From contig NZ_PEND01000001.1 in assembly GCF_002844195.1 (NCBI RefSeq), positions 682,001-746,000 on the forward strand: a stretch of 64,000 nt of DNA, read 5' to 3'. Numbering within the stretch: position 1 is the first letter of the stretch; the number at the start of each line of letters is the position of its first letter. The notes beneath the pieces were generated by a model. It ran no database searches. It was not told where the DNA came from and was given only the letters and a program-made list of their open reading frames with translations. The position numbers and the translations under genes are program-made. This document shows positions 6,405 through 55,284 of this stretch, piece by piece. The DNA is from Halegenticoccus soli. Its GTDB lineage: Archaea > Halobacteriota > Halobacteria > Halobacteriales > Haloferacaceae.

Positions 6405-7643
6405 ATGACCCAGTCGTTCGTGATTATCGGCGACGGGATCGCGGGGAGTTCTGCCGCGGAGACGCTCCGCGAGGAGGCCCCCGACGCCGATGTCACCGTT
6501 ATCACAGACGAGGGCGAGTCCCTCTATAATCGAATTCTGATCAAGGAGTTCGCCAAGGGGAAACTGCCCGAGGCGCCGATCTCCATCCACGACGAGTCGT
6601 GGTACGACGAACGCGACATCGACCTGCGGCTGAACACGCTCGTCACCGACATCGACCCCGAGGCGCACGCGGTCGAAACGCACGAGGACGAGACGATCGA
6701 GTACGACAAGCTGCTCGTGGCGACCGGCGGGACGCCGACCCAGCTCCCGGTCGAGAACAGCGACGCCGAGGGGATCCACCACTTCTGGACGTTCCAGGAC
6801 GCCCGGAAGATCCGCGAGAGCGCGGAAAGCGCCGACGACGCCGTCATCGTGGGCGCGGGCCTGCTCGGCATCGACCTCGCGGCCATCTGCGGCGCGCAGG
6901 GCGTCGAGGCGAAGTACCTGATGCGCGGCAACGCCTGGTGGCGCTACGCGCTCTCCGAGTCGGGGGCGGAGATCATGCACGACGCCATGCGCGAGATCGG
7001 CGTCGAGCCGGTCTTCGAAAGCGGCGTCGACCGCTTCGAGGTCGACGACGGGGGTCGCATCGTCGCCGCCGTCGATCCGAACGGCGACCGCTACGAGTGC
7101 GACTGGGCCGGCGTCGCCATCGGTCTCAACTTCAACACCGAAATCCTGCACGGCACCGGCGTCAAGCAGAACGACGGCGTCGTCGTCGACCAGCACATGC
7201 GGACGAACGTCGACGACATCTACGCCGCGGGCGACCTGACGCGCTTTTACGACACGATCCTCGGCGAGTACGCGCAGAACGGCTCGTGGGGTAGCGCCAA
7301 GGAACAGGGCACCATCGCCGCGAAGAACATGGTCGAGCCTGAATCCGCGGAGTTCCGGTGGGTCTCGTCGTACTCCATCACGCACTTCGACTTCCCCTTC
7401 CTCTCCTTCGGCCACCCGACCATCGGCGACGACGAAGTCGAGCGCAAGTACTCCGACACCGAGTACCGCCGCCTCGCCCTCAAAGACGGCAAGATCGTCG
7501 GCGGCGTCCTCATCGGCGATCTGGCCCCCCAGAGCGCCTACAAGCGGCTCATGCGCGAAGAGCGCGTCGTCGGAGACCAGAAGGAAATCCTGCTGGAGAA
7601 GAAGTTCGACGCCGACGAACTCGCCCCGCCGCAGGAACAATAA
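6405..7643 (+). CDS. NAD(P)/FAD-dependent oxidoreductase
   Basis: This is a 412-residue flavoprotein of the pyridine-nucleotide-disulphide-reductase fold, close in layout to rubredoxin/nitrite-reductase-type NAD(P)H reductases. It has an FAD Rossmann motif (GDGIAG, residues 9-14), ATGG near 106, an NAD(P) Rossmann motif (GAGLLG, 150-155) and the second FAD motif ending in AAGDLTRF near 270. No CxxC redox-active disulphide is seen near the FAD domain, so it is not a thioredoxin- or lipoamide-type enzyme. The electron acceptor cannot be told from the sequence. The gene is monocistronic with a near-leaderless promoter. Confidence 0.93.
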   Translation: MTQSFVIIGDGIAGSSAAETLREEAPDADVTVITDEGESLYNRILIKEFAKGKLPEAPISIHDESWYDERDIDLRLNTLVTDIDPEAHAVETHEDETIEYDKLLVATGGTPTQLPVENSDAEGIHHFWTFQDARKIRESAESADDAVIVGAGLLGIDLAAICGAQGVEAKYLMRGNAWWRYALSESGAEIMHDAMREIGVEPVFESGVDRFEVDDGGRIVAAVDPNGDRYECDWAGVAIGLNFNTEILHGTGVKQNDGVVVDQHMRTNVDDIYAAGDLTRFYDTILGEYAQNGSWGSAKEQGTIAAKNMVEPESAEFRWVSSYSITHFDFPFLSFGHPTIGDDEVERKYSDTEYRRLALKDGKIVGGVLIGDLAPQSAYKRLMREERVVGDQKEILLEKKFDADELAPPQEQ

Positions 7644-54115: not shown

Positions 54116-54291
54116 GCCCGGGTGGCTTAGCTGGACATAGCGCCGCACTCATAGGGTATCGCGTCGGTCCTCCGCGGTCCGACCACCGAGCTTCGGTGCG
54201 GTAACCGCCTTGGAAGCTCCGCTCCCGGAGGCCCGCCGAGCCTCGTACCTGGGACATGCGGAGATCGTGGGTTCGGAGCCCACCCCGGGCA
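54116..54291 (+). tRNA. Elongator tRNA-Met (CAT) with 102-nt intron
   Basis: The exons pair as acceptor GCCCGGG / CCCGGGC with discriminator A54291. The anticodon stem CCGCA (54143-54147) pairs with TGCGG (54257-54261) and the loop CTCATA gives anticodon CAT. The intron (54154-54255) begins after position 37, the canonical site, consistent with a bulge-helix-bulge recognised by the archaeal splicing endonuclease. Haloarchaeal elongator tRNA-Met genes usually have such introns. No encoded CCA. Confidence 0.93.
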
Positions 54292-54444
54292 CTCGACGAC
54301 TTCTCGCCGTGATCCGACCGCCCGCAGAGCGCGGGCTGTCCTCGTGGCCCTCCGTCGGTCGTCGGACCGTCTCGCAGCAGTTTCCGCCCTCCGAGTTCAG
54401 ACGCCAAAAAACGTTCGAGGGGGTCTCAGACTTTTCCCCTCACC

Positions 54445-54549
54445 AGCCATCACGGATGGCTGTTGGACCTGACGGATGTACGCAGCACAACGTGACTGAC
54501 CCAAGTGCTGCGAAACATAGATTCAGGCACCCCGGCATAAGTTTTCTCC
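54445..54549 (+). repeat. Two-hairpin element, copy 1
   Basis: The hairpin AGCCAT-CACGG-ATGGCT (54445-54461) is followed by CCTGAC (54468), then CGCAGCAC / GTGCTGCG (stem 54481-54512) with a loop containing ACGTGACTG, and then GGCATAAG-TTTTCTCC (54534-54549). Order and motifs match copy 2. It may be a relic right end of an IS200/IS605-type element with its omegaRNA-like scaffold; no tnpA or tnpB frame adjoins. Confidence 0.7.
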
Positions 54550-54790
54550 TTTCGCGGAGAATTTTCAAATTTCTATACATTCGGGGCCAGGGTGGATCGA
54601 GCGGTGCCGATGGCGGCGCGTGCGCCGGCGTTCGGTCCATTGATCGACGTTCTTGAAGTTACTATTCCCCATTAATAGCATTCTGATCACACTATGTCGG
54701 GGGGAGTCGCACTACCGCTCTCCGAGGAGCGGGGGCGAGTGGTCGGACGAGAGGTTCCTACAGCTCTCGGCCTTCTCGTTACCGTCGGAC

Positions 54791-54921
54791 GGGCCACCGG
54801 GGGACACGCCCCCTGCCGGCCCACCCGCGGAGATGCCGCTCCTGACAGGAAAGTGCAGCACCACATGACTGCCTTAGTGCTGCGGACCCTTCTCCCGACA
54901 CCGTCGGCATAAGCTTTCTCC
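54791..54921 (+). repeat. Two-hairpin element, copy 2
   Basis: The strong hairpin GGGCC...GGGGG-ACACG-CCCCC...GGCCC (54791-54822) is followed by CCTGAC (54841), GCAGCAC / GTGCTGC (54855-54883) with a loop containing ACATGACTG, then GGCATAAG-CTTTCTCC (54906-54921). Alignable positions to copy 1 run over about 80 bases. Both copies are on the same strand, 373 bases apart. Confidence 0.7.
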
Positions 54922-55014
54922 TCGTCGATTCGTTCGAAAGCGGCGACCGCTCGCCGGCGTCGGCGCGACGCTCTCGACCGGCTTCGGCGTCCGCCCGCCG
55001 AGTCCGGTCGGGTC

Positions 55015-55284
55015 TCACCGCGAGAGCAAGCCGCGCGAGCGCGTCCGAAGCTCGCGCGAGTCCACGATCGTCGGGAACCCGCCGTCGCGCCTGATCTCGA
55101 CTCCTTCGGGGAGATCCACGGGGTCCGTCGGAGCGAGCATCAGCACCTCCTCCGCCTCGGTCTCGACGATCTCCCGCCCGGTGTCCGTCTCCCACATGCG
55201 CGGGGTCCACGCGCCCGATTCGAACCGCTCCCAGAGGTCGTTTTCCGTGTAGTATCTCCCGTTCGATCCCTCGTAGACGGACAT
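55015..55284 (-). CDS. Small haloarchaeal hypothetical protein
   Basis: This is an 89-residue protein (MSVYEGSNGRYYTENDLWER) with regular beta/alpha pattern and acidic middle (REIVETEAEEVLMLAPTDP), then GVEIRRDGGFPTIVDSRELR. It lacks transmembrane or cysteine motifs. Codon pattern and acidity support coding. I do not recognise a family. It is encoded just right of the repeated hairpin elements, on the opposite strand. Confidence 0.7.
   Translation of the reverse strand: MSVYEGSNGRYYTENDLWERFESGAWTPRMWETDTGREIVETEAEEVLMLAPTDPVDLPEGVEIRRDGGFPTIVDSRELRTRSRGLLSR

Follow-up and report, generated by a model that had tools for sequence, protein, structure and literature searches.

Two tandem intergenic small-RNA genes are the probable content of the minus strand between tRNA-Met and a small gene in the 64,000-nucleotide stretch analysed here (the window, from Halegenticoccus soli). 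Each would have its own BRE/TATA promoter and both would be convergent with tRNA-Met, a reading to which a probability of about 0.68 is given. Transcription of the pair and the start and end positions given below are predictions from sequence. The pair would constitute an undescribed tandem family of haloarchaeal small RNAs whose promoter is well defined and whose expression can be clearly predicted.

A repeat of about 80 bases is read in the window sequence in two copies, at 54468-54549 and 54841-54921. Each copy begins with CCTGAC, continues with a GCAGCAC...GTGCTGC inverted repeat having TGACTG between its arms and closes with GGCATAAG[T/C]TTTCTCC. A sequence-only reading had reported this repeat, and all the features it described are present where it placed them. 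The local alignment of copy 1 with copy 2 scored 51, against a maximum of 25 for 2,530 other window segments of the same length, and the repeat is far beyond chance similarity. The hairpins of differing sequence said to precede each copy in the plus-strand view were recovered as CAGCCATC-ACG-GATGGCTG at 54444-54462 and GGGCCACCGGGGG...CCCCCTGCCGGCCC at 54791-54822. The neighbouring tRNA-Met is likewise real and contains an intron, being detected by ARAGORN only with the intron option.

A model of the element gave 95.8 and 80.2 bits at the two window copies and nothing elsewhere in the 4.6 Mb genome. The sole other bearer found was Halegenticoccus tardaugens, where reading of the locus showed a tandem pair proper to that species (L098 8169-8253 and 8415-8498). 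The model built from these four copies (R1) recovers them at 80-96 bits, with all remaining scores at or below 28 bits when 392 order and 170 family genomes were searched; the weaker hits, when read back, proved to have this promoter followed by a different hairpin, the one of the mptE leader described below. Across the four copies and two species there is conservation of the promoter, of the GCAGCAC/GTGCTGC arms, of a loop core and of a linker; the loop core is GGTCAGTCAYG in two copies, with variants in the other two, and the linker is CTGTCAGGTCC or a variant of one to two bases. The RNA pair thus looks, from the genomes searched, restricted to the genus Halegenticoccus. Searches of plasmids gave no match to the element, and viral contigs matched neither the promoter plus CCGG nor the hairpin pattern, which discards a viral origin.

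The strand of the elements is indicated by their promoter. GGCATAAG-YTTTCTCC is the reverse complement of a haloarchaeal-type BRE/TATA promoter, GGAGAAA[A/G]CTTATGCC, on the minus strand; the promoter stretch of the pair is written as GGAGAAAACTTATGCC and agrees with the haloarchaeal consensus, where the TATA box is TTWT, the BRE is CGAAA and WW is found at -10 (PMC4983044). A sigma-70 promoter scan was uninformative, the host being an archaeon. When GGCATAAGYTTTCTCC was sought in the host family, 41 of the 170 genomes had a match, usually a single one, and control matches were few. At nearly all of the loci fetched with it a second hairpin with loop CAAGTACCCCTACCCG lies just upstream (plus strand), the exceptions being two TGCATAAG sites (L020 and L021). 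On the opposite strand of those loci AGAGAAA[A/G]CTTAT[A/G]CC is followed some 20 bases later by a short A-rich tract, then by the hairpin, which lies 25-30 bases away from the TATA-like box, and finally by the start of mptE, and this layout is that of a putative haloarchaeal promoter followed by a structured 5' leader. The gene downstream of the motif was PF01973 (MptE) in 11 of the 11 loci tested, which fixes the strand of the promoter; any transcription of the window elements would therefore be from the minus strand, which makes the hairpins taken as upstream in the sequence-only reading the predicted 3' ends of the RNAs. Its coordinates for the repeat hold, but the strand on which it read them was probably the wrong one, and its proposal of standalone structured RNAs survives with the strand reversed.

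In each Halegenticoccus genome AGAAARCTTATNNCNG occurs exactly only in one RNA copy and in the mptE leader, and copy 2 and the second copy of H. tardaugens (G001b) differ from it by at least one base. Judged by sequence, the RNA pair and the mptE leader have nearly identical promoters, and each RNA copy looks to have a strong archaeal promoter, as predicted. The window genome also carries the standard mptE leader elsewhere (G000:C8:82776), so the window copies would be something else behind the same promoter. The mptE leader of H. tardaugens was located on NZ_SDIC01000009.1. The coordinates of all these features are collected in the table.

Table. Features of the RNA pair and its surroundings (window positions unless a locus or contig is named).
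Feature	Position	Strand	Basis or remark
tRNA-Met(CAT) with intron	54116-54292	+	ARAGORN, intron option; convergent with the RNA pair
Interval holding the RNA pair, 742 bp	54310-55051		BLASTN anchors on both sides
Putative promoter of RNA 1	54534-54549	-	BRE-like GGAGAAAA and TATA-like CTTATGCC; GGCATAAGTTTTCTCC of the sequence-only reading
A/T-rich -10-type element GAAT	54521-54524	-	Position predicted from TATA distance; mptE leaders have an AAA/GAAA tract at equal spacing
RNA 1 predicted transcription start	about 54512-54516	-	Predicted
RNA 1 5' hairpin GCAGCAC-loop-GUGCUGC	54482-54511	-	Sequence, alignments, folding, pair-change count
RNA 1 conserved linker CCGUCAGGUCC	54465-54475	-	Alignments A1/A2
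RNA 1 hairpin 2 CAGCCAUC-CGU-GAUGGCUG	54444-54462	-	Folding; not kept as a helix in the other copies
RNA 1 3' hairpin GAGGGG...CCCCUC, terminator-type	54417-54441	-	Folding; sequence shared with H. tardaugens copy G001a
U6 tract after last hairpin, presumed RNA 1 3' end	54406-54411	-	Sequence
Putative promoter of RNA 2, GGAGAAAGCTTATGCC	54906-54921	-	As for the promoter of RNA 1
RNA 2 5' hairpin GCAGCAC-loop-GUGCUGC	54855-54883	-	Sequence, alignments, folding
RNA 2 conserved linker CCUGUCAGGA	54840-54849	-	Alignments
RNA 2 strong 3' hairpin GGGCC..GGGGG-CGUGU-CCCCC..GGCCC	54791-54822	-	Folding; no U tract
mptE leader of the window genome	L099 about 6719-6810 = G000:C8:82718-82810		Between folP and mptE

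Each promoter (54921-54906 and 54549-54534) would direct one RNA start site, placed where the GCAGCAC/GUGCUGC hairpin begins, 25-30 nt downstream of the promoter, and the transcript would pass through the conserved single-stranded linker into a 3' hairpin. RNA 1 would comprise hairpin 1, the linker, hairpin 2, the GAGGGG/CCCCUC hairpin and a U6 end near 54406, about 105-110 nt in all, and both genes would measure roughly 100-120 nt. The U6 tract was missing from the output of a generic terminator scan, and a clear U tract is absent from RNA 2 and from both H. tardaugens copies. The 5' hairpin loop is of the type (G)GUCAGUCAYG and the linker of the type (C)UGUCAGG(UCC), with GTCAGG in the four copies and GTCAGGTCC in three of them. 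Folding z-scores of the full RNAs against shuffles were -2.0 and -1.3 in the window and -0.7 and -1.6 in H. tardaugens, so that the modelled energies are better than those of shuffles only moderately, a modest difference.

Among the four copies, no variation is seen at 6 of the 8 pairs of hairpin 1, and one pair is altered on both sides. Since the arms barely vary, covariation gives no proof of an RNA fold, which on sequence is plausible, and leaves room for a DNA dyad. As such, GCAGCAC-N15..17-GTGCTGC would be the operator of a DNA-binding repressor and the transcript incidental; the invariant arms with almost no compensating change, a spacing that shifts by 1-2 bases and the position of the dyad directly at the predicted transcription start all agree with it. 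However, conservation extends beyond the arms to the loop GGTCAGTCAYG and the linker, the 3' hairpins further downstream are retained, and there is no following gene to control, tRNA-Met being convergent; the operator is accordingly considered unlikely. The notion that the copies are functionless, degenerate duplicates of the mptE promoter region draws on a promoter nearly that of the mptE leader, on a hairpin 1 with comparable spacing to the TATA box and on the confinement to a single genus, but the hairpin, loop and linker are kept across species and paralogues while the intervening sequence diverges, and the transcribed parts are without evident homology to the hairpin of the mptE leader. 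It is regarded as improbable, more so than the operator. An H/ACA or C/D guide RNA, suggested by the presence of small hairpin RNAs next to a tRNA gene in an archaeon, seems very improbable, since on inspection neither an ACA box nor a RUGAUGA/CUGA pair is conserved in the four copies and Rfam was unmatched.

A coding function is not apparent. No reading frame common to the four copies was seen on inspection, and many mptE leaders, like the H. tardaugens copy G001b, have ATA in place of the ATG within CTTATG; not being conserved, this ATG is not a start codon. A small leader peptide from this ATG was rejected on that ground and because the frame is broken by an indel between copy 1 and G001a. 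The covariance models of Rfam 15 gave only two chance-level hits in the window region (E 1.6 and 5), relaxed thresholds included, and left the H. tardaugens copy of the element unmatched. On the minus strand no gene lies between either RNA and the convergent tRNA. With no following gene, no shared frame and no Rfam family, a regulatory sRNA is the most parsimonious interpretation. The small RNAs would most likely act in trans. Both the loop GGUCAGUCAYG and the linker CUGUCAGGUCC contain GUCAG, and these two exposed motifs might be offered to targets or to an RNA-binding protein, the two diverged copies broadening the target set. From the nearly identical promoter, expression parallel to that of the folate-type gene mptE would be expected. 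A scan of both Halegenticoccus genomes with the loop complement CRTGACTGACC revealed no coherent target, the only evident site of this type common to both species being inside a coding region, and duplexes between the conserved RNA parts and the mptE leader were no better than those of shuffles.

The location of the pair differs between the two species. In H. tardaugens the interval orthologous to that of the window measures 82 bp between BLASTN anchors, against 742 in the window, and the pair is absent from it; there the pair is convergent with tRNA-Thr instead of tRNA-Met, and the window genome has no pair at its site orthologous to that of tRNA-Thr. As each species is without the pair at the site used by the other, the pair would have moved, or have been gained and lost, among tRNA-flanking sites of the genus. 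Some mobility or relocation between such sites within the genus is taken, from these comparisons, to be real, and the pair would exemplify small-RNA genes relocating in this way inside one genus. Between 54200 and 55200 neither inverted terminal repeats nor a direct repeat of the tRNA end were found, and no TnpB gene is near the pair, so that none of the three explains the relocation; a tRNA 3'-end attachment site of an integrative element was rejected for lack of the direct repeat. The tRNA-Thr site of H. tardaugens (L098 7406-8137) contains an FxLYD-domain gene along with the RNA pair, and different sequence is present upstream of tRNA-Thr in the window genome (L105), a variable spot beside a tRNA. 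The 89-aa gene adjoining the pair in the window (55015-55284, minus strand) is kept in H. tardaugens and has no Pfam or NCBIfam match.

The sequence-only reading had likened the layout to a structured scaffold with omegaRNA-like function at an IS200/IS605-type element end, had offered MITE-like units as a possibility and had noted the absence of TnpB. The latter point is upheld: the genome contains 35 TnpB-type (PF07282) matches, none of them in the window and the nearest about 130 kb off. The locus does resemble IS200/IS605 right ends in its abundance of hairpins leading to a short conserved end, in its two copies and in a position that differs between congeners. Yet the supposed end reads as a minus-strand promoter, the one preceding mptE in many haloarchaea, no TnpB-type match is nearby or accompanies the element, and no copies are found at IS ends. 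Terminal inverted repeats and dispersed copies, which would befit a MITE, are missing, and the only two copies always form a tandem pair. Such an origin, as an element end or as a MITE derived from it, is therefore largely refuted and has a very small probability, as small as that of the guide RNA. The TnpB-type matches are found on contigs C3 and C5, most of them on C5, pointing to a replicon with many elements of the IS200/IS605 type.

The mptE leader probably outweighs the RNA pair in interest and merits its own study, being a structured, covarying leader before a gene of pterin/folate biosynthesis that is directly testable in Haloferax-type systems. Its hairpin is GCCGG...CGGGUA-GGGG-UACUUG...CCGGC behind the promoter AGAGAAARCTTATRCC, before mptE (PF01973), and in the window genome the preceding gene encodes the pterin-binding enzyme FolP. 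In an alignment of 46 leaders, 92% of the cells pair, two-sided changes occur at 8 of 17 pairs against 3.5 expected from shuffles, and 31 cells have two-sided changes against 6.6 expected, every slid control being far lower; the leader is well supported as a structured RNA. The apex CGGGUA-GGGG-UACUUG retains G-U pairs, further evidence for the mptE strand, and its GGGUAGGGGUAC is invariant among the aligned leaders, partly because GGGUAGGGGUAC was the search key. The leader was found in at least 8 families of the order. No Rfam match was obtained for the loci tested, no description was found in the open literature, of which coverage was incomplete, and the leader is apparently undescribed. 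It is a candidate archaeal riboswitch or protein-bound leader; to our knowledge, few natural archaeal riboswitches are known. Two genomes (G243 and G261) have two exact copies each of the leader loop CAAGTACCCCTACCC, and the second sites might be further genes under the leader. In Halonotius/Halohasta relatives (L011, L028, L094 and L096) a second hairpin lies between leader and gene, with a T run in the Halonotius loci, and might represent either an attenuator or a short RNA of its own. A joint proposal would make the mptE leader a hitherto undescribed RNA switch of archaea (a riboswitch binding a pterin/folate compound, or a protein-bound hairpin) and the RNA pair, under nearly the same promoter, the trans-acting partners of its regulon, spread between tRNA-flanking sites; it is improbable, with a probability below that of the operator.

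Among the systems compared, the mptE leader has nearly identical BRE/TATA and -10 spacing and a hairpin at the predicted transcription start; its hairpin is nevertheless of unrelated sequence and precedes a protein gene, whereas the window RNAs precede none. The THF-I and THF-II (folE motif) riboswitches, which are bacterial (PMC6800512), resemble the mptE leader by analogy only, as structured leaders of a pterin/folate gene, the mptE leaders matching no Rfam family, and are irrelevant to the window RNAs themselves. Intergenic sRNAs are described in Haloferax volcanii, among them sRNA132 and s479 (PMC6560208, PMC8155600), and the window RNAs are likened to them by description only, being also intergenic, non-coding in appearance and haloarchaeal. 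They differ in being predicted from sequence, found only in Halegenticoccus, arranged in tandem and in sharing a promoter with the mptE leader. The best reading of the pair is that of a new, genus-restricted addition to the haloarchaeal sRNAs, a known kind.
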